A stretch of DNA of 26,717 nt from a virus, in IMG/VR virus record IMGVR_UViG_3300014489_000164, positions 1 through 26,717 of that record. One strand, 5' to 3'. The notes beneath the pieces are model-generated. The model was not told the DNA's origin. It made no database searches and was given only the letters and a program-made list of their open reading frames with translations. Shown piece after piece: positions 3,676 through 20,425 of the stretch. The first letter of the stretch is position 1. The number at the start of each line of letters is the position of its first letter. Position numbers and translations under genes: made by a program.

Positions 3676-6600
3676 TTACGAGTAGATGAAGACTGAAAGG
3701 TCTGAGCCAGGAAACGTTGTCCCCACCGCTGTGATTCCGATGGAAACCGCCGTGTTGGCCGGGATCTGGGTAAGAGCCTTGATCTGCGATGTTGTGGCGA
3801 CTACCGCCGTCTGGCCAGCGGAGATCGTCAGTGATAGCCAGGCTGCGCCGCCTACATAGATCGTGAACGTGATGCCCGAACCGGTGGGCGCCGCCTGCAC
3901 GTAAGCCTTCACGTCGCCCACCGTGACCGGACCATTCAGGTAGAGCGGCTGGGCCGCATTGGATTCGATGCCCAACGTGCCTTGCATCTGGAACACCAGG
4001 CCAGCAACCTTGGAGAGTCCCTCCGCGCCGAAGACCCAGTCCTCGCGGATCGGCTGGTCGCCGTCCGGAGACTCGTTGCCGTTCACGTCTACCGTGAAGC
4101 CGGCGATCAGCAGTGTCTCGTCCACGAAATTGCCGGTCGGCATGTTGATCGTGGTCACCGCCAGCGGGTTGCCGTTATCGAACGACGTCGTGTCGCAGGA
4201 ATAGGGCCAGGTCGGCTCTTCGATAATCCAGACATCGCCGGGATTGATCACCATCGGAAGGTCCCACGTGATGCTGGTCGGCGTATTCGCGACGATCTTC
4301 CGCGGCGGCGTGCCGCGCGACGCGCCCTGAATCACGCGAACGAGGTTGCCGACCTCCGCGCCAGGCGTCATGCCGTTGGGATAGACAGTGCTCTGCCAAC
4401 CGGAATCCGTGATCGAGGTCGGGTCGCTGGCGTTCGAAGCGTCCGCAGTAAACCGTAGTGCAATGCAGTCGCCCGCCTGCACGATTCCGTTGGGGTCCGG
4501 GGTCACAGCAACAGTGCCGGTGGTCTGGTCCCATGAAGTGACCGTCCCACTGAAGAACGGCGTGGCTCCTTCCGGCCTGCCGATGACCGAAATGAAGCGC
4601 CCAACCGGCGTCCATGTCGGGTTCGTGGAGGGCGGCGGTCCTTGGAACGATCCAACCACGAGCTGGCCCGAAGCAACACTCCAGACGGAATCTCCGATGA
4701 TTCCGCTGTGTCTTATATGCTTGGCCTTCAATCGGACCTTGCTCACGTATGGCGATGGCAGGGCCCATGTCGAGCGCACCAGCGGTCCGGCGAACGTGAT
4801 CGATCTGGGCGTGTAGGTGTTGTTCGCGCCCGCCGTCAACGTTCCGGTGGCCTGCGCGCAGATCAGATCGTCCTGCGTCGCGACGAACAGCACGTAAGAA
4901 ACGAGTCCGGCCACTGCCGGCCAGGTGATGCCTTCCAAGGTGAACGTGTCCGTTCCCGAGGCCGAGGTCCCGATGATGGCAATATTCGATGGAGCCGAAG
5001 GAAGCCCGCTTGAATCTATCGCGCAGATAGCCACGCGCAGCGTCGCGTTGGCTGGCAACGATCCGCCCGTCGCGGACTGCGAGACCGATCCGATACCGGG
5101 CGCACCCGCGCCGGTGGCGCTGAACTCGTTCACCGGCAGTTTCCCCGTCACCACCAGGTTCGCAAGCATGCTGCCGTCAGCCATCTGGGCGTAGGACTGG
5201 TCGGTATCGAAGGTCCACTCGCCCGGAAACAGCGCGTCATTCGTCGCCGCCTGCACCTGGTACGGTGCCCACGCGGGGCCGAGCGGGATCGCATAATACA
5301 AGGCCGGCAGGGGCGCGGGCACCACGTCCATCGGCTTCGGGCCAACGTCCAGGTCGTACATCGAGTCGGTGACGGTCTGCCCCTCGATCTGCACCGACCA
5401 GTCCTTCTTCAGGCTCCATCGCTGAACGCGGTAGCACATCGTGATGACCTGGAACGAAAGGCCGCTCCCGGATGGCGGCGCTGGCGACGTGGTGATCGTG
5501 GAGCCGTCGCTGCTGACGGCGGTGATCGTCACCTGCGCGCCGGCGATCACGATCTCTTTGTTGACCAATTCCGAATCCCCGGTCGCGCTTCCGGCATAGG
5601 TCCACGGATCGCCGCTCACCCACGTTGCAGTGCCGCCGGAGACGTTGCATGTGCCATGGAGGCCGGGAATGTCCGGGTGGGTCATCGAGACCACCTGCCC
5701 GACCTCGTTGCCGAGGCCGAGCAGCGTCGTCTGCCACGCCGCCGTTCGCGCGTCGCGCCATTCCGCGGGAGTCACGCCGCCGACCTCTTCGCGGGTGCGC
5801 GTGGCTGCGATCCGCAGCGCCTGGCTGAGTGACGAACAGCCCACCGAGTGCATCTGACTCGTCAGCGGCGACCCCGCGCGCCCGTAGTAAGCCGCGTGGC
5901 TCTTGTCGCAATACTCTGCCGTGTTTGCCTGGTACTGATAGGCAACATCGGCGAACGAAAGCACCAGGTGCTCGAAACCAGCCTGGATCGGCGTCAGCCG
6001 CAGAGTTTGAAACAGAGAGTTCGCGAGGGTGTAGGCATCCACCGCGCTAGCGTTGATCCGGCAGCCGAGCTTCAGCTTCCCGAACTCCCATGTGTAGAAG
6101 CCCAGGCAGCAGTTGAGCACCTCGGTAATCCAGTCGCGAAACGGCTTCTGGCTGCTGATGACTCCCTGGAACTGGAACTGGGTTTCGGTCCCTTGGACGC
6201 TGGTCTCCGTGACATACCCGAGCGAGAGCGCCTGCGCAATCGACATGGTGGTTTGCACGCCGCTCCCCTCCGGGGGCGGTGGGGGCGGGCTGGTCCAATA
6301 CGAAAACGAGTAACTGCCGTCCGGATTGAGATTGATCTGCGGAGCGGTGAGCGCCTCCCCTGCGGTGGTGAGAGCATAGTTCACGATTGGCGACGTGACA
6401 CCCAGGATCGGGGTCACTTGCGTCGCCGCGATCTCGGCCGCGCCGCTTCCATCGCCCACAATCAGCGACGGCAGCACGAACGTAGCGAGCTGCGCGGACG
6501 ACGTGGGGCCAGTCCCGCCAGCCGGGTTCGATCCCGTTGACGGATCGCCGTACAAGCCCATCGCACGCAGCAGCATGTTGACCGCAATCCAAAATGGATT

Positions 6601-8307
6601 GATCAGTCCTTTGACCCCGGTGCGGTTGCCGTTCTGGTCCCAGGTCCAGCCCCACATCCCGTAATCAATGGGGACGGTCATCTGGTGCTGCTCCGGAGTG
6701 CTCGGTTGAATCGTGGTGGACTTGACGATTCGAATCTCGCACGCCGCAGTGCCGGCCGCGTAGACATTCGGCTCCCAAACTTGCGGCGATCCCTGACCGA
6801 GCGAGAAGTAGTCGCTGCTCGGGTTCGCCGGGTCGCTGCCGGTGACGTAGCGCAGCCCCATGCCTGGTTGGTATTTCGTGATGTTCAGGTTGCCGTTAAC
6901 CGCCAGTCCTTGCCAGAGGTAGCCATCGACCATCGGAGCGACCACGTATTTGTAGCCATCCGCGTTCGTGACGACTGCCGAAGGGGTGAATCCACCGAGA
7001 GGTCCGGCGCTCAAGATACCGAGCGAGTCGGCGTAGCCCGACTCATCGCGGTAATCCACCATCAGTGCGCTAGCCATGAACGCATAAAGGGGATTGCCGC
7101 CCGAGTTGCACCAGATCTCCGGCAGCGCCAGGCCCCAGACCGTATCCGAGATGATCGAAGTCGCCGTGACGGTGTTGCGGCCGAAGCCGAGGAAGCCGGT
7201 GGAGTCGTCCTTGATGACGACGCCTTGCGGGTCGGCCTGCTGCCCGCCGAAATAGGGCGACATGCCATGCACCTGGCAACCGTTCGCCGATTCGAGGTAA
7301 TAGTCGCAGCTCGTGGAATCGCCGCCGGCAGCCGTCACCGCCGCGGCGCTGCGGCCCTTTGAGGCCCACGGGCAGGTCACGCCGTCGTTGTAGGTCTTCC
7401 AGCACTGGCGGCTGACCTGCCGCTCCGGATACTGGTTCATGATCTGGAAGAACCCGTCCGAGCACGTAACCGGGAAGATCGGCGTCCCGTCACTCGTGAA
7501 GTTCTGGATGACACCTTTCCAAAGCTGCAGCAGAATACCGGTGTTCACGTGGAAGAGGCACAGGTCGATCTCGGCATACTTCAGGTCGGTGTCGTTGGCA
7601 AGCTGCGTCATCACGCGGTCGCCGTTGCCGAAAGTGAAGCGGACGTTATCGGAGGTGCCTTTGATGTCCTGCGAAATCAGGACATCGGAGCCAGGCTCGC
7701 CGATCCCGATCAGGCGCGGCAGGTATAGCTGGCCGCCCACCGTGACGCGCCGGTCGGAGACGTAGATGTCGGCGACCGCGGATTCGCGAACGCGGATGTG
7801 GACCAGGGGGACGATCTGCTGGACCTCGGAAAGCAGGGCGGTGGACAGCGCGTTCGAGGGGAATCGCAGGCAGGTGGAGTTGACGGTGTAGCTGGGCGCC
7901 TGGGTCGGATCGATGACCTCGATGAAGTTCAGTCCGACCTGTACGGCGGTGCGCAGGTACTCGAACGAAATCGGCGCCTGCTCGAAGGTGACCAGCACGC
8001 CCGTGGTGGTTTCTTCGGGATTGGGGACCGTGTAGGTGAACGCCTGCCACGGCCCCTGCATCGACTCCCAAAACGCCTTGAGCTGGTTGGTTTCGGCCCA
8101 GTTCAGATTCGGGTGCTTGAACTGAAACTTGCGCGGGCCAATCCCGACGTAGTACCGCTGCTCCTGCTTGGCGTCGAGGCTGCCGAAGCGATGCACGATC
8201 AACGGGCGCTCGACGGAAAAGCCGAAGGGGTACTGCGTGGTAAGCGGGAATGTCTTGCCGGAGTTGGTCACCGTGGGCACGGTGATGCGGCCGATGGTGT
8301 CAGACAT
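3676..8307 (-). CDS. Tail-tip hub / host-specificity protein (fused Dit-like, gpL-like and gpJ-like modules)
   Basis: A 1543-residue central tail-tip protein. Residues of about 20-130 resemble a distal-tail domain and match the separate 138-residue protein encoded at 10750-11166. Residues of about 165-345 resemble lambda gpL / DUF2163, ending in four cysteines (C302, C312, C334, C344) spaced CWKTYNDGVTC ... CDYYLESANGC. In lambda gpL the matching cysteines hold an iron-sulfur cluster. The middle looks like the gpJ hub (FRDWITEVLNCCLGFYTWEFGKLKLG region), preceded by a run of six prolines. Fibronectin-like beta domains follow. The last 90 residues form a small beta-sandwich tip (LYLNGPVTVGDVKAYV ...). 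I chose the ATG at 8307 (MSDTIGR); an in-frame TTG at 8322 would add five residues. Neither has a clear Shine-Dalgarno sequence. The gene faces away from the helicase gene that interrupts the tail module upstream. Confidence 0.88.
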   Translation of the reverse strand: MSDTIGRITVPTVTNSGKTFPLTTQYPFGFSVERPLIVHRFGSLDAKQEQRYYVGIGPRKFQFKHPNLNWAETNQLKAFWESMQGPWQAFTYTVPNPEETTTGVLVTFEQAPISFEYLRTAVQVGLNFIEVIDPTQAPSYTVNSTCLRFPSNALSTALLSEVQQIVPLVHIRVRESAVADIYVSDRRVTVGGQLYLPRLIGIGEPGSDVLISQDIKGTSDNVRFTFGNGDRVMTQLANDTDLKYAEIDLCLFHVNTGILLQLWKGVIQNFTSDGTPIFPVTCSDGFFQIMNQYPERQVSRQCWKTYNDGVTCPWASKGRSAAAVTAAGGDSTSCDYYLESANGCQVHGMSPYFGGQQADPQGVVIKDDSTGFLGFGRNTVTATSIISDTVWGLALPEIWCNSGGNPLYAFMASALMVDYRDESGYADSLGILSAGPLGGFTPSAVVTNADGYKYVVAPMVDGYLWQGLAVNGNLNITKYQPGMGLRYVTGSDPANPSSDYFSLGQGSPQVWEPNVYAAGTAACEIRIVKSTTIQPSTPEQHQMTVPIDYGMWGWTWDQNGNRTGVKGLINPFWIAVNMLLRAMGLYGDPSTGSNPAGGTGPTSSAQLATFVLPSLIVGDGSGAAEIAATQVTPILGVTSPIVNYALTTAGEALTAPQINLNPDGSYSFSYWTSPPPPPPEGSGVQTTMSIAQALSLGYVTETSVQGTETQFQFQGVISSQKPFRDWITEVLNCCLGFYTWEFGKLKLGCRINASAVDAYTLANSLFQTLRLTPIQAGFEHLVLSFADVAYQYQANTAEYCDKSHAAYYGRAGSPLTSQMHSVGCSSLSQALRIAATRTREEVGGVTPAEWRDARTAAWQTTLLGLGNEVGQVVSMTHPDIPGLHGTCNVSGGTATWVSGDPWTYAGSATGDSELVNKEIVIAGAQVTITAVSSDGSTITTSPAPPSGSGLSFQVITMCYRVQRWSLKKDWSVQIEGQTVTDSMYDLDVGPKPMDVVPAPLPALYYAIPLGPAWAPYQVQAATNDALFPGEWTFDTDQSYAQMADGSMLANLVVTGKLPVNEFSATGAGAPGIGSVSQSATGGSLPANATLRVAICAIDSSGLPSAPSNIAIIGTSASGTDTFTLEGITWPAVAGLVSYVLFVATQDDLICAQATGTLTAGANNTYTPRSITFAGPLVRSTWALPSPYVSKVRLKAKHIRHSGIIGDSVWSVASGQLVVGSFQGPPPSTNPTWTPVGRFISVIGRPEGATPFFSGTVTSWDQTTGTVAVTPDPNGIVQAGDCIALRFTADASNASDPTSITDSGWQSTVYPNGMTPGAEVGNLVRVIQGASRGTPPRKIVANTPTSITWDLPMVINPGDVWIIEEPTWPYSCDTTSFDNGNPLAVTTINMPTGNFVDETLLIAGFTVDVNGNESPDGDQPIREDWVFGAEGLSKVAGLVFQMQGTLGIESNAAQPLYLNGPVTVGDVKAYVQAAPTGSGITFTIYVGGAAWLSLTISAGQTAVVATTSQIKALTQIPANTAVSIGITAVGTTFPGSDLSVFIYS

Positions 8308-8406
8308 GGTATGAGAAAGCAAAAATGCTTGCGCCAGAGTCTCAAATCCACTCGCGACGATCCGACTTGTTGGTAATCATGCTACCGTAAGCGGCGAGCC
8401 GCCAAA
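8308..8406. other. Divergent intergenic region between hub gene and helicase gene
   Basis: About 100 bases between two genes facing away from each other, so it should hold the helicase promoter and any secondary promoter for the tip genes. I see no good -35/-10 pair on either strand. Visible structure: a small hairpin AAGCA-AAAA-TGCTT at 8317-8330 just before the hub gene, and GCGG-CGAG-CCGC a few bases before the helicase ATG, where a Shine-Dalgarno sequence would be expected but none is clear. The second hairpin could mask translation of the helicase, which is speculative. Confidence 0.35.
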
Positions 8407-10713
8407 ATGGACTATAAGGTCGTTTATACAAAACCGTTTAATGGGTGTCTTCGCGGATTATTGCAACATGGCCAGAAGAAGGTTGTGCAGGCTGTTCGAG
8501 CCGCGATCTCCGAAGCGGGAATGACCGGTGAAATTCGCTCGCTGCCTCGCACCAAGCACGGTGAAACCCGTATCCAAGACGTAGAAAAATATGATTTGGC
8601 CGACGGTCACAGGCTTGTTATTCAACTCGTAGACGGCAAAGACAAAGTTCGTGCTTTCCTCTTCGTTGGCTCTCACGACGAAACGGAGCGCTGGTTGGAT
8701 GGACACCGAAATTATCGATGGATCAAGAACCGGAATGACGGCACTCTGGACTTCGTCCAAGTAAGTGAGCTTCAACGACACGTCCCTTCGGACCGAATGG
8801 ACCTCGAATCGCCTGAGGACATATTAGCTCTTCCACTACTGCGAGTTCTGTCCTCCGACGAGTGGTGCCGCTTAGAACTCGCGGGCGAAGCACAGGCTTT
8901 CGCCTCAAACATCACCGAAAACGAATACGAACGAGATGCGGAGGGCATCTTAACGCGACTTGACGAAGTTTCGGGTTACGAGAAGGCCTCGTTGGTCTTT
9001 GATCTGCTGGGACACGCTCATGCCGGCGAGTGGCAGCAACTTCATCAGCGCATAGGCTTGACTACCGGCGAGGCTGCTGTGACCGTGCCTGAGGAAGTCG
9101 CGCCCGCCATGTTGTCTCCGGAGAACCGCGAGTCGTTCGTAACGTTCGACGATCCAGACGAGCTGTCTACCTTCTTCGAAAACCATTCGATGGCGGATTG
9201 GATGCTTTTCTTACATCCCGAACAAAAGAAGGTCTCTGAAAAAGAGTTTAAGGGCCCAGCCCGGTTGCGCGGCGTGTCAGGCAGTGGCAAAACGTCTGTA
9301 TTGGTCCACAGGGCACGTTTTTTAGCTAAAAAGTATCATCAGCATGTTCTCCTAGTAACACTTACCGAGAGTATGCGGAAACTTCTGGATCACCTCGCTG
9401 ACGATCTCTGCGGAGTCGAGCGCAGCCTTATCGTTACCATGACCATGAGTTCATTGGCAAGGCACGTTGTCCAACAGCTTCATCCTCAGTCATCTGGCTT
9501 CTACACACTGATCAGTCAACAACAATCGGACAGTGTTATTTCTGTGGTGGCACAGCACGTCCGTTCCCACGCCGATTTCGCCCGTACGCCGCTTACAACG
9601 ATGGAAGACCGCGTACTATCGGAGTTCCTGCGCGATGAAATCTCATATGTACGTGGGCGCCTGCTTCCCGCTGACCTCGATCATTATCTCGATTCGCGCT
9701 TATTCCAACGCCGCGGGAGAGGCTTTGCTCTCAACGAGACCGCAAGAAGTGTCGTGCTCGACGCCATCCGCCTCTATGAACAAAAACTATGGGAGGCGGG
9801 CCTATTGGACCACGAGGGAATCGTCGCCGAGGCCGTCAGGCTCATAGATTCGGGTAACAGCCAAATCGATAGACCGCGTTGTATTCTCTGTGACGAGGTT
9901 CAGGATCTGTCGCAGTTGGAGGTTGCATTACTTGGGCGGCTGCCAACGCCAACCGGCGAGCACATGGCTGAAGCGGAGAATGGGCTGTTTTTAGCAGGCG
10001 ACGGCGCACAGACGATCTATAAACGGGGTTTTACGCTTCGACGCTTAGGGATTGATGTCAGCAGCCGCAGTTTTACTCTCCGAAAGAACTACCGAAATAC
10101 GCACGAGATTCTGACCGCCGCGTTTAGCTTGGTTTCGGAGTACGAGTTTGCGGATGTCGATGAGGATAACGTCATCAAGCCAACCGAGCCAGAATTTGCG
10201 AAACAGCATGGAGTACGGCCTGTGATAGTCCGCTGTTCGTCGCTAGCTGAAGAAGCAATGGTAATCGCCGAAAAGGTACGGGCCGACTTGGCCTATGGAC
10301 AAACTCCGGGCCAGATCTGTATTGTTGGCCCGAACACCAAGATTCGAGACGAAGTGCAGCGTGCACTGACGCGGATCGGCATCGCGTATACCGACCTACG
10401 CCAGGATGCCGACTACGAGAGCGATAGAGTCAAGGTCAGCACGATCGAGTCCGCAAAGGGACATGAGTTCAGCGCTGTCTTTATCGCGGGTTTGGTCGAA
10501 GGCGTTTTGCCTAATGGCGACGTCACGGAGGCTGAAATCCCGCGTGAGGCCGCTCGCCTATACGTGGCCATGACCCGCGCGCGGGACACGCTGACGCTTA
10601 GCTACAGCCCGTCGGGGCCGTATAGCGCCTCACGCTTCTTGCTGGCGATTCAGTCGCACTGCGACGAAGCTCGTGTTAGGGACGGGCAGATGTATCGTGT
10701 ACACGCATCCTAA
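8407..10713 (+). CDS. RelE/ParE-like domain fused to a UvrD/Rep-type superfamily 1 helicase
   Basis: A 768-residue protein, the only plus-strand gene here. Residues 1 to about 105 resemble the RelE/ParE toxin fold (start YKVVYTKPF; end HRLVIQLVDGKDKVRAFLFV then GSHDETERWL). Residues of about 106-268 are unrecognised and mostly helical. The helicase core follows: Q-motif-like HPEQKKV (270-276), Walker A GVSGSGKTS (289-297, Lys295), Walker B ILCDEVQD (493-500, Asp496/Glu497), motif III GDGAQTIY (531-538), motif IV LRKNYRN (558-564), motif V VSTIESAKGHEF (677-688) and motif VI YVAMTRARD (719-727). All motifs look intact, so ATP-driven DNA or RNA translocation is likely. Codon use (TTA, ATA, AAA, AAT) is visibly more A/T-rich than in the flanking tail genes, suggesting separate acquisition. 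It sits inside the tail operon on the opposite strand, as a prophage moron would. The role is unknown; defence or superinfection exclusion is inferred. Confidence 0.9.
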   Translation: MDYKVVYTKPFNGCLRGLLQHGQKKVVQAVRAAISEAGMTGEIRSLPRTKHGETRIQDVEKYDLADGHRLVIQLVDGKDKVRAFLFVGSHDETERWLDGHRNYRWIKNRNDGTLDFVQVSELQRHVPSDRMDLESPEDILALPLLRVLSSDEWCRLELAGEAQAFASNITENEYERDAEGILTRLDEVSGYEKASLVFDLLGHAHAGEWQQLHQRIGLTTGEAAVTVPEEVAPAMLSPENRESFVTFDDPDELSTFFENHSMADWMLFLHPEQKKVSEKEFKGPARLRGVSGSGKTSVLVHRARFLAKKYHQHVLLVTLTESMRKLLDHLADDLCGVERSLIVTMTMSSLARHVVQQLHPQSSGFYTLISQQQSDSVISVVAQHVRSHADFARTPLTTMEDRVLSEFLRDEISYVRGRLLPADLDHYLDSRLFQRRGRGFALNETARSVVLDAIRLYEQKLWEAGLLDHEGIVAEAVRLIDSGNSQIDRPRCILCDEVQDLSQLEVALLGRLPTPTGEHMAEAENGLFLAGDGAQTIYKRGFTLRRLGIDVSSRSFTLRKNYRNTHEILTAAFSLVSEYEFADVDEDNVIKPTEPEFAKQHGVRPVIVRCSSLAEEAMVIAEKVRADLAYGQTPGQICIVGPNTKIRDEVQRALTRIGIAYTDLRQDADYESDRVKVSTIESAKGHEFSAVFIAGLVEGVLPNGDVTEAEIPREAARLYVAMTRARDTLTLSYSPSGPYSASRFLLAIQSHCDEARVRDGQMYRVHAS

Positions 10714-10721
10714 CCCTAACA
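10674..10721. repeat. Nested inverted repeats at the end of the helicase gene
   Basis: TGTTAGGG at 10674-10681 pairs with CCCTAACA at 10714-10721, and the palindrome CGTGTACACG (10696-10705) lies between them. The helicase stop codon is at 10711-10713, so the structure spans the end of the gene. It lies between two convergent genes and could end transcription from either side or mark an insertion edge. There is no T-run on either strand, so a classical intrinsic terminator is doubtful. Confidence 0.4.
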
Positions 10722-10749
10722 GCGTCGCAGCGCAGTCTGGTCGTGAAGG

Positions 10750-11166
10750 TTAGGCCACCTCAACGAGATTCAGCCCTTGCACATTGGACCGTGAAATATC
10801 AGTTGATTGGGCCCAGTTGCCGCGGAACACCACCGTCACGCGCCCCTGCGTATTGTTGCCGGTGGGATCGTAGTTGCTGCCGATCTGCTGGCCCATCGCC
10901 ACGTCGAAGGGGTTGTAGAAAGCAAACGGGGTCAGCCCGGCATTCTGTGAGACCCAAAAGCTGTACAGGGCCGAAAGCAGCGACGCGCTCAAGCGCTTGC
11001 TTAGCCGGAACGTTCGCCGCGAGGTCTGAGCGAGTTGGGACCGTTGGATCGTGCCATCGTGAAACTGGTTCTGGAGTTGAGCGTACTCCCGCAACTCCGT
11101 GAAAGCGGTGCACAGCGATGCCGGCATCACCCCGTTGGGCTCGACTTGTGTGAGGTTGCCTGGCAC
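10750..11166 (-). CDS. Distal tail (Dit / gpM-like) minor tail protein
   Basis: A 138-residue protein in the position of lambda gpM, directly after the tape measure. Its core (RTFRLSKRLSASLLSALYSFW, then TPFAFYNPF, then GRVTVVFRGNW and LNLVEV) is the distal-tail / minor-tail-protein pattern. It aligns by eye with residues of about 45-130 of the hub protein (RKFQF, AFTYTVPN, GVLVTFEQAP, LNFIEV), so the two look like paralogous domains. Proteins of this kind form the ring joining the tail tube to the tip hub. The start is a GTG at 11166, four bases after the tape measure TGA, with GGTGG about nine bases upstream, so translation is probably coupled. In phage order the next gene would be the hub, but the opposite-strand helicase gene separates them. 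Confidence 0.75.
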   Translation of the reverse strand: MPGNLTQVEPNGVMPASLCTAFTELREYAQLQNQFHDGTIQRSQLAQTSRRTFRLSKRLSASLLSALYSFWVSQNAGLTPFAFYNPFDVAMGQQIGSNYDPTGNNTQGRVTVVFRGNWAQSTDISRSNVQGLNLVEVA

Positions 11167-11170
11167 GGGA

Positions 11171-15715: not shown

Positions 15716-15791
15716 GATAACCTTTAGCCGGGACAACGTGCGCAGCATGAGCGGCCCTGCACGAAGTCTCTATTGGGAATCAACACCGGCT

Positions 15792-15806
15792 CGCCCTTTA
15801 AGGGCG
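15792..15806 (-). terminator. Possible terminator hairpin after the KAP gene
   Basis: CGCCC-TTTAA-GGGCG forms a five-base-pair stem (seven complementary positions around a central T) directly beside the KAP gene stop codon at 15807. No T-run follows on the minus strand, so it may only slow polymerase or mark the edge of inserted DNA. Confidence 0.35.
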
Positions 15807-18800
15807 TCAGGTTACGCCGGCCCATGCCTTTTTGAAGCGCTTTGCTGCCACCTGGGTCGGCGTGAAGCGCGCCCCTTTCTGCGTCGCCGCCTCAAGTGCT
15901 GCTTGGTATGCCTTCCTTTTCTCTTGGGCGGGATCCTCAGCGCGTCTGCGAACTTCCGCCAGCGGATCCGCGCCCTGCTCGGCCAAGCGCAACACCAACC
16001 CTGAATCCAGGCTTGACAAAACGCCCAGACCGACGAGAGCTGGTTCCGGCACCGCTTCATCAGCATTCTCTGCAGAAGCGATGAAACGCAATTGATTCAG
16101 GAAGCGCTTGAGCTCCCTGGGCGAAGGTGAGACTTCGAATGCCGCCGGGGTCCAGATGTTCAGCGCCCTGACAAACTCCGGCGAGTCCAACTCCACAGCC
16201 GGTAGTAGACCACGGCGAAGCTGTAGCCAAAGGGCGAGAATCGCGAGCAATCCGAGCGGCAGTGCAATACCCAGCAAGAGCCTCGCGGTAACGGCAGGTG
16301 CCGACTCCCGTGACTCATAGCTCGGGCCTTGGACGGCACCGATGTCCTTGGACTGCGCCGGGTGTGGTTCGATCTGCGGCGACGCGAGCGATGACTGACC
16401 GGTTACGAGTGTGGGGCCGGCCGGGAGTGAAGAGATCTGCACCGGGTGCAGCGCACGGTAGACCATGTCGCCGCCAAAGTAGCCGCTGATTGCGAGCGTC
16501 AGGGCAACGCCACCGACTGCCGCGATTCGCCAGGCGCGGTCGGTGACGGCGATCGCCCTCTGAAGATTTTCGCGTCCCGCCTCCGCCACGAGGCGGCTGG
16601 CAGCGCCAGCGTCGAAGTCCGGGACCGGCACCTCCATTTGGATGAGTTTACGCAAGTAATTCTCAGCGAAGCGGTTTCGTGCCTTTCGTTCATCCGTCTC
16701 TGCGGGAGCGTCCTCCTTGGCCATCGCGGCGTAAGCCAAACCGATGCCGTTCAGCACCTGCTTGCGGTCGATTCCGAGGATAACGAAACAATGGCCGGCG
16801 TTGGTTAGAAAGTTAATCGTTTCCATGATTTCGGCGATCTGGTCGGGACGACAGCGGTCGAGGTCGTCGATGATGATGGTGAGTCGGCGATCACCGAGCG
16901 CCTCAGTCACCTCCTTGAGTGCGCCTGCGAACCTAGTGCGGAAAGCGAGTTGGCCGCCAAGGTCAGTCCAACGCGTAGCACGGACCGTGCTGGCCATAAG
17001 CTTCCCTGGGTCAAGCCCGCGCGACTTCAGACGATCACGGAAGCCCCAAACGGCGCCGTACAATGCCCATATGACGCCTGCTGCGGGGAATAGATTTTTC
17101 ACTTCGGTTCTGGCGACTGCATCCGATAGCGTCGACAGATTAATCCTGGCTAGGTACTTGAATATCGAGGCCCACTCGCCGCTTGATCGTGGCAAGCACA
17201 ATGCAACGATGAAGCTGCAGGCCACCAACCCCCCGGCCCAGCAAAGTGGCTTCTCAGCGACCCGCTGACGGAAGAGGCGAGTGCGCACGCGAAGGCCGGC
17301 AAGGCTAAACACCGGGGGTACTGCCTGCTTCCGAACCTGTTGCAACAGCGCTGCAAAGATATTTTCCTCCTTCTGGTGGTGCCACGCGTTGAACCAGACG
17401 GGACGGATCTCGCGCCTCCGCAGGTCCTGGCGAAGGCGGTTGAGTACGCTCGATTTCCCGGTGCCCCAAGGCCCAGTGACGGCAATCGTCAACGGCGGCT
17501 CGGTTTGCGAATTGCGGAGGAAACGGCTGATCTGAGTGGCAAGAGTCTCGGCACCAGCCACATCCTCGTCACCGTCATCAAGAGGGCGATCAGGTGTGAA
17601 CAGGCCGGCGAGGCTAGTGACGTAAAGCTCGCGCTTCCGCGACGGGAGGGGCTGAAAGGCTGGCAGCGCAGTGACGAAGCCGACCACCAAGAGCAGCCAA
17701 GTGATGGGTGCCAGCGACCTGCGATGCAGCACCTTTTGCCACGTTTGTCCTGCGTCGGTGCTACGCACGATCGTGTTACCAATGCCCACTGCGATGGCAG
17801 TGCGGCCATCTGCGGCCAAGGCAATCGCATCGAGATGGCCCTGGTTCCCGGCGCGGACACTTGACCAGTTAGCACCGGTATCGGCGCTACGCAGAATATT
17901 GCCGCCAGCGCCGACGGCCAGGGCGGTGCGGCCGTCAGCGGCAATTGCAACTCGCCATAGAAGGCCATGCCCCGCCGCAACGCTGACGGGCGTCCAACTG
18001 GCACCAGCATCGAATGTGCGCAGGCTCGCCGCGGCCATCTTGCCGTCATCCCCCACCGCAATGCCAGCGCGACCGTCTGCGGTTACTGCGACGCCGTTGA
18101 GTTGACCTAGAATGTCGATGCTGGCCGGTGACCATGTGGCCCCTGCATCATCGCTGTGCAGAATCGGGCCGTGGGCACCCACCGCGATGGCGTTGCGACC
18201 GTCCGCTGCGACGGCTATTGCCAGAATTGGGTGCTTGGCTCTGGTGCCGGCCGGCGACCAGGTTTGGCCCCCATCGGTGCTGCGCAGGATGGTGTCGTCC
18301 TCGCCCGACGCGATCACTACGCGACCGTCTGAGGCCAATGCTATGCTGCGGAGGTTGTGGTCCGGTCCAACGGGCACCGTCACCCAGGTGACCCCACCAT
18401 TGATACTGCGTAGGACCGCACCATTGAGGCCTGCGGCGATGGCGGTGCGGCCATCTGCGGCAAGGGCGATTCCGGTGAGGATGGCTCGGGGAGCCGCAGT
18501 AGTCGTCGACCAAGTGATGCCAGCATCAGTGCTGCGGAAAACCGTTCCGTCCTGACTCAACGCAATGGCGGTGCCTCCATCTGCGCTCAGGGCGACGCCG
18601 ACGAGAACGGACTGGCTCCCACCTGCGATGAGCGACCAGCTGTTGCCCGAATCGGCGCTCCGCACGATGGTGCCAGGCCCACCGACGGTGATCGCGATGT
18701 TGCCGTTCGCGCTCAGAGCGACGCTATAGAGGGAGGCGTCCGCTCCAATGCTGAACGACGACCAAGTGACACCTGCATCGCCACTCCGCAGGATTGCACC

Positions 18801-19733
18801 GCCCCAGCCTACCGCGATGGCGCTACGGCCGTCCGCAGCTAGGGCAACGCCCAGCAACTCGGCGGTTGTGGCTCCGGCGTTTATCGCCGACCAACTAGTG
18901 CCCGCATCAGTGCTTCGCAGGATCGTATTTTCATAGCCGACAGCGATGGCTATACGCCCGTCACGGGCGAGGGCGACGCGGGTAAGGGCAGCCCTGGTTT
19001 CAGCATTTACCAGCTGCCAAGTGCTGCCGGAGTCAACACTACGAAGGATCGTTCCGCCGGACCCGACCGCAATCGCCACGCGGCTGTCCGCTGCGAGGGC
19101 GACGCTGTTGATGCTCGCCGAAGTGCCACTGTTAGCCGATGACCAAGTGGCGCCCGCATCAGTACTGTGCAGAACGGTGCCTTTACCGCTTACTGCGACG
19201 GCGGTGCGACCATCCCGAGTAATGGAGACGTCGCGAAGGTCGTCCTTAGTGCTGACGTTGACTGGGACCCAACTCGCACCCCCATCAGTACTACGAAGGA
19301 TAGTGCCTCCTTCTCCGACCGCAATGCCGGTGCGCGTATCCGCGGTGAGGGCTATGCCTTCCAAGTTAATCGGCTTTCTGGCACCGGCCAAGGACCAAGT
19401 GGCGCCCGCATTGTCACTGCGTAGGATGGTCCCTCCGTGACCGATCGCAATGGCCGTGCGTCCGTCCGCAGCGAGGGCGACTGCGTTCAGCGGTTCATCA
19501 ACGAGTGACAGCCGCGCGAAGGCATTCTGCTCCTGCGGCTCCAGCCACCATGCCGAACTCCACCGTTCTGCGAGTCGGAAGGGATCGGCGCGCAACGGCA
19601 GCCAAGCCGTCAGCGCGACGCCAAGCCCGCAGAACGCCAGCGCCGCCATTAGCCAGGGCAAGCGCAGCCGGATCCAGGGCATTGACGGCCACGTTCTGGC
19701 CCTGGAGTTCGACGCTTCAGTCTTGCCCACCAT
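15807..19733 (-). CDS. Membrane KAP-family P-loop NTPase with an extracytoplasmic 14-blade YCF48/BNR-like propeller
   Basis: A 1308-residue protein. TM1 (about 25-45) follows a basic N-terminus. Residues of about 82-667 hold 14 repeats of the form VALAADGRTAIAVG-GGTILRSTDAG-TW, with the closing Trp at 113, 155, 197, 239, 281, 324, 366, 408, 450, 492, 534, 580, 623 and 665. TM2 is at about 676-693. The KAP NTPase follows: Walker A GPWGTGKSS (754-762), FNAWHHQKEENIFAALLQQ (781-799), a transmembrane pair inside the domain (about 830-848 and 882-898), and Walker B IIIDDLDRC (953-961). TM5 (about 1068-1086) and TM6 (about 1151-1171) bracket a short external loop. Predicted topology: propeller outside, NTPase inside. 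KAP proteins include the F-plasmid exclusion protein PifA and membrane signalling proteins. A sensor joined to an NTPase effector is therefore plausible, but the function is unproven. AAGGGAGGT lies 13 bases before the ATG. Confidence 0.9.
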   Translation of the reverse strand: MVGKTEASNSRARTWPSMPWIRLRLPWLMAALAFCGLGVALTAWLPLRADPFRLAERWSSAWWLEPQEQNAFARLSLVDEPLNAVALAADGRTAIAIGHGGTILRSDNAGATWSLAGARKPINLEGIALTADTRTGIAVGEGGTILRSTDGGASWVPVNVSTKDDLRDVSITRDGRTAVAVSGKGTVLHSTDAGATWSSANSGTSASINSVALAADSRVAIAVGSGGTILRSVDSGSTWQLVNAETRAALTRVALARDGRIAIAVGYENTILRSTDAGTSWSAINAGATTAELLGVALAADGRSAIAVGWGGAILRSGDAGVTWSSFSIGADASLYSVALSANGNIAITVGGPGTIVRSADSGNSWSLIAGGSQSVLVGVALSADGGTAIALSQDGTVFRSTDAGITWSTTTAAPRAILTGIALAADGRTAIAAGLNGAVLRSINGGVTWVTVPVGPDHNLRSIALASDGRVVIASGEDDTILRSTDGGQTWSPAGTRAKHPILAIAVAADGRNAIAVGAHGPILHSDDAGATWSPASIDILGQLNGVAVTADGRAGIAVGDDGKMAAASLRTFDAGASWTPVSVAAGHGLLWRVAIAADGRTALAVGAGGNILRSADTGANWSSVRAGNQGHLDAIALAADGRTAIAVGIGNTIVRSTDAGQTWQKVLHRRSLAPITWLLLVVGFVTALPAFQPLPSRKRELYVTSLAGLFTPDRPLDDGDEDVAGAETLATQISRFLRNSQTEPPLTIAVTGPWGTGKSSVLNRLRQDLRRREIRPVWFNAWHHQKEENIFAALLQQVRKQAVPPVFSLAGLRVRTRLFRQRVAEKPLCWAGGLVACSFIVALCLPRSSGEWASIFKYLARINLSTLSDAVARTEVKNLFPAAGVIWALYGAVWGFRDRLKSRGLDPGKLMASTVRATRWTDLGGQLAFRTRFAGALKEVTEALGDRRLTIIIDDLDRCRPDQIAEIMETINFLTNAGHCFVILGIDRKQVLNGIGLAYAAMAKEDAPAETDERKARNRFAENYLRKLIQMEVPVPDFDAGAASRLVAEAGRENLQRAIAVTDRAWRIAAVGGVALTLAISGYFGGDMVYRALHPVQISSLPAGPTLVTGQSSLASPQIEPHPAQSKDIGAVQGPSYESRESAPAVTARLLLGIALPLGLLAILALWLQLRRGLLPAVELDSPEFVRALNIWTPAAFEVSPSPRELKRFLNQLRFIASAENADEAVPEPALVGLGVLSSLDSGLVLRLAEQGADPLAEVRRRAEDPAQEKRKAYQAALEAATQKGARFTPTQVAAKRFKKAWAGVT
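17730..19490 (-). repeat. Fourteen tandem 42-codon propeller repeats
   Basis: The coding DNA of the propeller has a period of 126 bases. Eleven of the thirteen Trp-to-Trp spacings are exactly or nearly regular: ten of 42 residues, two of 43 and one of 46. The repeats are diverged at the DNA level but keep recognisable blocks such as GCGGTGCGGCCGTC. Fourteen blades could fold as two seven-bladed propellers. Confidence 0.85.
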
Positions 19734-19746
19734 CGAGAGTCTTTTT

Positions 19747-19755
19747 ACCTCCCTT
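19747..19755 (-). promoter_or_regulatory. Shine-Dalgarno sequence of the KAP gene
   Basis: AAGGGAGGT on the minus strand, 13 bases before the ATG at 19733. The match is strong but the spacing is longer than usual, so translation may be less efficient than the match suggests. No in-frame start codon is closer to it. Confidence 0.5.
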
Positions 19756-19958
19756 CAGTACCGCAAACGGTAAATCGTCGTGTTCGGCAATGGAAGTGTG
19801 GCTCATTCGTTGCCCCGTCGCGCGGCTCATGCCACATGTGTCCGGCCACTGCGGGCCTTACGTTTCGGTCGTTGCGAGCTTGTCTCAGGTACACTGCATC
19901 TTATCACTCCGAACGTCGTATTAAGACGGCGACTTCATTTACGGGGAGGACAGACCGC

Positions 19959-19970
19959 GAACCGCGGTTC
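19959..19970. promoter_or_regulatory. 12-bp perfect palindrome, possible operator or hairpin
   Basis: GAACCGCGGTTC reads the same on both strands. It lies 36 bases beyond the stop of the zinc-ribbon gene and about 225 bases before the KAP start. It is flanked by GGGGA (19943-19947) and TCCCC (19969-19973), which could pair as an outer stem. It could be a repressor site for the KAP gene or part of a terminator for the tail-tube operon. Confidence 0.35.
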
Positions 19971-20006
19971 CCCTGGGACTGAGACATTGGAGGCGTCTCG
20001 AAAAGA

Positions 20007-20372
20007 TTACCGAGAACTCTTGTTTCCCCGGTCCCCGCTCTGGATCTGCTCCTGGCGCTCGGCTTCGATCAACTCTAGCACCCGAAACTCCTCCTCGGTG
20101 ATGTCCGCCAGTGTGATCGTCAGCCCGATGCTCTTCGCGTTCAGTATGCGGAAGCATCGACGTACCAGAGCGCCGTGGGGCGTGTCCATCGCCTCTTCGA
20201 GCAGGTTTTTCGGACAGCCCGGCCCGTGGCTGACGTCGATGGCTTTCCAATCCGCGCGGCAAGCGGGGCAGCCATTCAATTCCGCCTGCGCCGAGTAGCC
20301 GCACTTCCGGCAGCGGAAGACGCGGTCGGGGCACTCTTCCTCGGCTCCGCACAGCCCGCCCTGGTGCAGCAC
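20007..20372 (-). CDS. Zinc-ribbon protein in the gpT position (probable tail assembly accessory protein)
   Basis: From the GTG at 20372 the product is 121 residues. A zinc-ribbon-like pair of knuckles, CRKC then CPAC ten residues later, is followed by two further cysteines nearby and a helical, acidic C-terminus (ITEEEFRVLELIEAERQEQ). By position, between the chaperone-like gene and the tape measure module, it corresponds to lambda gpT; the family itself I cannot name. The GTG has no Shine-Dalgarno sequence. The frame stays open and coding-like for 19 more codons upstream (ITTPGDWPEDPGVRFLIRS) to an ATA at 20429 that overlaps the upstream TAA as ATAA. The true N-terminus is therefore probably at or near 20429, giving about 140 residues. 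I list the GTG only because it is the first standard start. Confidence 0.72.
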   Translation of the reverse strand: MLHQGGLCGAEEECPDRVFRCRKCGYSAQAELNGCPACRADWKAIDVSHGPGCPKNLLEEAMDTPHGALVRRCFRILNAKSIGLTITLADITEEEFRVLELIEAERQEQIQSGDRGNKSSR

Positions 20373-20425
20373 CGACCGGATCAGGAATCGAACGCCCGGA
20401 TCTTCCGGCCAGTCGCCGGGCGTCG

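Follow-up and report, generated by a model that had tools for sequence, protein, structure and literature searches.

A RelE-fold/SF1 helicase fusion gene, probably an ArmD-like stand-alone defence moron, in a variable junction of a phage tail operon

The DNA analysed in this study (the window) is an IMG/VR virus record, a linear contig of 26,717 bases. It carries, opposite in strand to its late operon, a gene whose 768-aa product joins an N-terminal RelE-fold domain to a complete SF1 helicase. Judging from sequence comparisons, this gene is probably a self-contained anti-phage defence moron, which resembles ArmD of the ARMADA system and occupies a cargo hotspot of the late operon. The gene and the parts of its product are as follows.

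8407..10713, plus strand: RelE-like/SF1 helicase fusion gene, 768 aa (open reading frame with an ATG start)
8407..8736, plus strand: N-terminal RelE-fold domain, residues 1-110 (AlphaFold2 model, fold search, profile links and alignment)
8737..9192, plus strand: middle region, residues 111-262, predicted to be mostly helical and showing the lowest conservation (full-length AlphaFold2 model, identity per domain)
9193..10710, plus strand: SF1 helicase core of the UvrD/Rep type, residues 263-768 (Pfam, PDB fold matches to UvrD/PcrA/Rep, motifs)
9271..9294, plus strand: Walker A motif GVSGSGKT, with K295 (K266 of ArmD; alignment)
9892..9906, plus strand: Walker B motif DEVQD, with D496 (D454 of ArmD; alignment)

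On the evidence of its homologues this is a real gene and not a chance reading frame, because it has full-length relatives, 43-71% identical, in Vibrio phages, Acidobacteriota, Halopseudomonas, Vibrio and Alcanivorax. The original prediction had described the gene as reversed and richer in A/T than its surroundings; indeed, every other large gene recognised in the window, including those for tail, capsid and peptidase proteins, lies on the minus strand, and the G+C content of the gene is 54.2%, compared with 61.9% for the window. The predicted set of main UvrD/Rep helicase motifs, in the same frame as the RelE-like domain, was also borne out, with agreement between Pfam (UvrD-helicase, E=1.4e-15; UvrD_C, E=6.6e-21), PHROG_1967 (DNA helicase, E=1.2e-39) and the motifs. 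The helicase makes up the C-terminal two thirds of the protein, is related to UvrD, PcrA and Rep by PDB fold matches and contains the full set of main SF1 motifs (I-VI): GVSGSGKT (residue 289), DEVQD (496), GDGAQTIY (531), KNYRNT (560), STIESAKGHEF (678) and LYVAMTRARD (718). The full-length AlphaFold2 model was weak (mean pLDDT 69, pTM 0.38), with domain contacts that could not be read. Scanning for promoters and terminators around the gene gave signals no higher than in shuffled sequences, and the tRNA and Rfam scans were empty.

Both the predicted structure and sequence profiles place the N-terminus in the RelE/ParE superfamily (BECR fold). AlphaFold2, run with five relatives, gave a RelE topology for residues 1-126 (pLDDT 83), and a Foldseek search of the PDB gave RelE, YoeB, YafQ, ParE or HigB toxins as nearly all of its 50 best matches (probability about 1.00), the top TM score (0.77) being to YafQ. 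Thus, the RelE-like fold proposed from the sequence was recovered in topology as well as in structural matches. Pfam gave no match for residues 1-119, and a profile built only from the clade of the window protein matched no PDB chain; the RelE homology is therefore shown through intermediates. The ArmD-type proteins of plasmids have N-termini that match RelE and YoeB chains (E=2.4e-6), the window-clade profile aligns with the ArmD-type N-terminal profile (hhalign 93%, E=2.8e-7), and a joint profile matches RelE of Thermus (E=1.4e-7) and of E. coli (0.0028).

The RelE domain is the best-conserved part of the protein, with a mean pairwise identity within the clade of 62%, compared with 52% for the helicase and 39% for the middle region (synonymous sites are saturated among these relatives, hence no dN/dS value is given). 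Twelve of its residues (T49, G52, E53, R55, K61, L64, R69, L70, F86, G88, H90 and W96) are invariant in 11 aligned relatives. In the joint alignment, K52, K54, R61 and R81 of RelE correspond to K61, D63, R69 and H90 of the window protein. Thus, the comparison with the RelE catalytic residues suggested by the original prediction gave a divided answer: the equivalents of K52 and R61 are present, whereas K54 and R81 are replaced by Asp63 and by the invariant His90, respectively. The catalytic histidine of YafQ and YoeB sits at or near the position of RelE R81, which makes RNase activity of this domain plausible, and the presence of Asp63 at the K54 position renders catalysis uncertain.

The original prediction had also stated that RelE-UvrD proteins lack an established function. 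A relative with a tested role is known, however: the RelE-UvrD fusion ArmD, a component of ARMADA Type II, whose anti-phage activity has been validated, as described in a 2025 preprint (PMC12458937). According to the same preprint, deletion of any one of the four ARMADA genes abolishes protection, the K266A substitution in ArmD (helicase Walker A lysine) abolishes defence, D454N weakens it, and the protected cells remain viable (PMC12458937). ArmD is thus known as one of four parts, and no test of its RelE domain was found in the text consulted (PMC12458937). The window protein shares with ArmD the order of its domains, RelE-like at the N-terminus and then a UvrD helicase resembling GajB, and its K295 and D496 correspond to K266 and D454. 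In contrast, its helicase is only about 27% identical to that of ArmD, and its gene stands alone in a phage hotspot, without ArmA, ArmB or ArmC: Pfam scans revealed none of the three in the window, and none was seen beside the relatives in loci L005-L009 and L022, whose neighbours were partly judged from ORF starts only. In the helicase tree, the window clade (8 members) is split from ArmD with 100/100 support and an inner branch of 1.89, and the window protein groups with two Acidobacteriota proteins (support 100/99). Membership in ARMADA was rejected on account of the missing partner genes.

Related arrangements were noted on plasmids. A protein of an E. coli IncY plasmid is very probably ArmD itself, because K266 and D454 occur exactly at the published positions (PMC12458937) and the gene is preceded by one for a 2113-aa DEAD/DEAH helicase; this region (L026:4583-13035) accordingly appears to hold the ArmC-like helicase and ArmD of ARMADA Type II. 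Other plasmid RelE-UvrD genes (L028, L029 and L033) adjoin DISARM-like (helicase and PLD protein), DNA methyltransferase/restriction and DUF4011 systems, which suggests that the module recurs outside ARMADA.

Whether the RelE-fold domain acts as an RNase is, in our estimation, about an even question: the conservation and the Lys/Arg/His triad argue for this step, and Asp63, the lack of an antitoxin and the non-abortive character of ARMADA argue against it. The main competing explanation, to which we give a little less than an even chance, is that the domain has no catalytic function and acts as a docking or regulatory module (for the ribosome, RNA polymerase or a partner), and that the helicase alone performs defence or DNA processing, in the manner of GajB assisting GajA. 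It would account for the replacement of K54 by Asp63, for the missing antitoxin, which an active ribosome-dependent RNase normally needs, and for the fact that ARMADA defence does not shut down the host (PMC12458937). A parallel is provided by CnuH of the CoCoNuT systems, whose RelE-like domain lacks sequence conservation to characterised members (PMC11090510). Against a docking module, however, the RelE domain is the best-conserved part of the fusion, and the Lys, the Arg and the invariant His at catalytic positions exceed what a scaffold would need. This explanation disputes only the RNase step, and is compatible with a defence role.

The closest full-length relative (71%) comes from an Acidobacteriota MAG of Bryobacteraceae, and a further one from another genome of the Acidobacteriota sample; those of Halopseudomonas, V. 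harveyi and Alcanivorax (two) show 45-54% identity, and the two Vibrio phage proteins, near-identical to each other, 43%. Among the genomes sampled, the full architecture was present in 1 of 369 from gammaproteobacteria, 2 of 396 from Acidobacteriota and 1 of 197 from Vibrio, each count including the genome used as the sample centre. Scans of viral contigs with the helicase or its alignments, at pattern-based sensitivity, revealed no further relatives, so that at this sensitivity the fusion appears to be rare in phages. A housekeeping helicase was ruled out by this scattered distribution; the concern, raised in the original prediction, that the gene might prove to be mainly a chromosomal housekeeping one is thus removed, and its relatives often reside in defence islands.

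The chromosomal neighbours vary among the relatives and are of defence type in four of six cases: (i) Hachiman HamB and HamC with a TIR effector (L006), (ii) an LmuA-like large NTPase (L007), (iii) an OLD-type ATPase and a Dcm DNA methylase (L008), and (iv) a NERD-UvrD gene, directly downstream of which the copy lies (L009). The two Acidobacteriota copies (L005 and L022) stand alone on the chromosome among ordinary genes, without defence neighbours. In none of these six loci was a constant partner or antitoxin seen. The Vibrio phage copy is likewise alone on the strand opposite to its neighbours; a separate pair annotated as RelE-like and Shedu SduA was noted beside the helicase there (L002:22419-23335, minus strand). 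Acidobacteriota are the likely hosts of the phage, since they are the source of the two nearest helicase relatives, and one genome of this phylum contains a distant version (46%) of the tail module.

Comparison of related phage loci revealed that the fusion gene occupies a variable junction, designated hotspot A.

8308..10749, no strand: cargo segment of hotspot A, 2442 bp, from the stop codon of one tail gene to the start codon of the next (relatives lack it or have other cargo)
10750..11166, minus strand: upstream anchor, a conserved 138-aa tail-operon protein (77 relatives)
3676..8307, minus strand: downstream anchor, a large tail protein with its start codon at 8307 (weak Phage-tail_3 match)

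Scans with the two flanking tail genes retrieved 74 and 77 viral loci, the first set originating from 52 different metagenomes. After de-duplication by identical cargo sequence only, which left three pairs of related cargo, there were 68 distinct junctions: 15 were empty (0-12 bp), 3 contained 156-230 bp and 50 contained 0.6-4.7 kb. Cargo of more than 300 bp was therefore present at 50 of the 68 sites, compared with 0 of 24, 3 of 56, 1 of 74 and 15 of 74 at four other junctions of the operon. The flanking DNA of the window is 83-95% identical to that of nine relatives, with which its cargo shares nothing; the similarity is lost some 20 bases or less from the stop codon and resumes at the start codon on the other side. 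This is the moron-like insertion that had been proposed, placed exactly between two tail genes. The RelE-helicase gene occurs at this site in none of the other phage loci sampled.

The cargo is highly diverse, its 74 ORFs of at least 100 aa (called mechanically) forming 70 clusters. The longest ORF has the orientation of the late genes in 24 sites and the reverse orientation in 22, and the G+C content of the cargo is below that of the flanks in every case listed. The Pfam domains detected include TIR (alone or with AAA), a TIR-like domain with WD40, a Cap4 nuclease beside an SMC-like ATPase of Lamassu-like character (LmuB), GmrSD and a PLD/restriction nuclease, as well as HD, FRG, DUF4365, PIN, NYN, protein kinase and thymine-hypermodification enzymes. 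PADLOC matches were obtained for LmuB, NsnA, PD-T4-6, PD-T4-2_A, HEC-09, mad6 and TIR-TM, counts that have no matched baseline. Only part of the cargo is recognisably defensive, and some genes have no Pfam match. With its conserved anchors and fast-changing cargo, the junction has the layout of a phage antiviral hotspot, and a defence-cargo hotspot is the best reading of it. It resembles the P2/P4 antiviral hotspots (PMC9122126) in being a small locus, flanked on both sides by conserved phage genes, whose 1-5 kb of cargo turns over rapidly, and differs from them in lying inside a tail operon of uncultured phages, in having two such junctions per phage and cargo on either strand, and in being known here by domain content.

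Two further observations concern this region. One cargo segment (L045:4967-7782) encodes an alpha-glutamyl/putrescinyl thymine pyrophosphorylase and a thymidylate synthase-looking protein, possibly a DNA hypermodification set. Between the tape measure and 138-aa genes (11167-11170 in the window, where it is lacking), several relatives (L056, L058-L061, L096, L150 and L165) carry a conserved 2.2-kb gene for a protein of about 715 aa with a signal-like start.

The second variable junction of the operon is hotspot B.

15749..20425, no strand: hotspot B, occupied in the window by the gene 15807-19733 (junction comparison)

The junction measures 0.37-3.3 kb in 64 relatives and 4.7 kb in the window, where the gene 15807-19733 (minus strand) encodes a 1308-aa protein that has a KAP NTPase domain and an N-terminal beta-propeller of the BNR/YCF48 type. 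Cargo found here includes TIR, AIPR, HD-CE with HATPase, DUF4365, and XRE with an IrrE peptidase. Another occupant (L141:1720-2502, plus strand, 260 aa) combines an ArmD-type RelE-like N-terminus (E=3.6e-20) with a C-terminal domain that was not recognised.

Other known systems share single traits with the fusion. Like GajB of Gabija, the window protein has a UvrD-like SF1 core, and the PADLOC GajB models match it (E down to 1.2e-29); unlike in Gabija, no GajA gene lies beside it, and a GajB-like Geobacillus protein (472 aa) begins directly at the helicase, whereas the window protein has an extra N-terminal domain. The OLD-type nuclease partner GajA is absent from the window, an OLD-like ATPase adjoins only the L008 copy among the relatives, and membership in Gabija was rejected because of the missing partner. 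The top PADLOC match was NERD-UvrD (C3a187, E=7.4e-31), which similarly places a nucleic-acid enzyme domain before a UvrD helicase, this being a NERD nuclease-related domain where the window protein has the RelE fold. CnuH with an RTL domain, which belongs to a predicted defence system, also joins a RelE-like domain to an SF1 helicase, but its helicase is UPF1-like and the system is a multi-gene one of the McrBC type (PMC11090510). With regard to type II toxin-antitoxin modules, no cognate antitoxin was found beside the window gene, which is flanked by tail genes, and none is conserved beside the relatives, in accordance with the original prediction. A review of multidomain RelE proteins excluded those lacking antitoxins and does not mention helicases (PMC11980606).

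The likely defence role that had been proposed thus gains support from relatives in defence islands and from the often defence-type cargo of the hotspot. Defence is our best reading in view of (i) the RelE fold, (ii) the defence-island relatives, (iii) the scattered distribution, (iv) the hotspot site and (v) the ArmD K266A result. Counting against it are the dependence of ArmD on three partners that the window lacks (ArmA, ArmB and ArmC), the L005 and L022 copies without defence neighbours, and the only partly defence-type cargo. An unlikely explanation is that the gene serves counter-defence or superinfection exclusion, aiding its carrier phage against host defences or host RecBCD. It is indeed phage-borne, hotspots may house genes of several roles, and helicase-nuclease systems, Gabija among them, interact with RecBCD-blocking phage factors that sit on DNA ends (PMC12407980); however, relatives reside in bacterial defence islands without phage genes, and the hotspot cargo resembles host-type immune effectors. 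An accessory helicase of the Rep/UvrD kind for phage DNA replication or repair, with an incidental RelE-like domain, is still less probable: the SF1A core is related to UvrD/PcrA/Rep and PHROG_1967 is classed under DNA metabolism, but the gene is absent at this site from every related phage locus sampled, runs opposite to its neighbours and is rarely present in bacteria. Least credible of all is a selfish addiction gene uniting toxin and helicase, as the RelE fold, the mobility and the single gene without an antitoxin might suggest, since an antitoxin domain is absent and a single polypeptide does not permit differential stability, and hence post-segregational killing.

For the gene as a defence moron, we infer the following mode of action. 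Because the gene lies on the strand opposite to the late operon, it would probably have a promoter of its own and be expressed independently of the late genes, and would protect the infected or lysogenic host against competing phages. The SF1 motor, of 3'-5' polarity by family and bearing the RelE-fold domain at its N-terminus, may engage the nucleic acid of an incoming phage where it is single-stranded or has exposed ends; sensing of DNA ends or single strands is a reasonable guess by analogy with Gabija, which prefers phage DNA ends unguarded by RecBCD (PMC12407980). ATP-driven movement would then position or release the RelE-fold domain, which might cleave RNA, either ribosome-bound or nascent phage mRNA. 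As there is no antitoxin gene, the helicase and the helical middle region may hold this domain silent until triggered. The viability of ARMADA-protected cells speaks against a general mRNA-destroying toxin. More tentatively, and in our judgement doubtfully, the whole clade might represent complete one-gene immune systems, in which the helicase is both the invader sensor and the built-in antitoxin of a RelE-type RNase, acting like ArmD without ArmA, ArmB and ArmC and spreading via a tail-operon hotspot that stores many undescribed defence genes in uncultured phages.

The RelE-UvrD architecture was already known from ArmD; what is new is above all the context of the gene. A stand-alone clade carried by phages, with a highly conserved RelE domain, reduces the matter to a one-gene question, i.e. 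whether helicase action licenses a RelE-fold RNase. It is also worth mentioning that two pairs of anchor genes retrieve dozens of nearly all different cargo genes from short metagenome contigs, and that cargo without Pfam matches sits next to clear immune effectors. The anchors thus give direct access to new defence systems of uncultured phages, whose hosts are probably Acidobacteriota.

Finally, two- and three-gene clusters of gammaproteobacteria (L010:3088-5172, L018:656-2752 and L019:623-2571) were found to combine the same RelE-like domain with an apparent coiled coil, the coiled-coil-like genes adjoining the RelE-like fusion.
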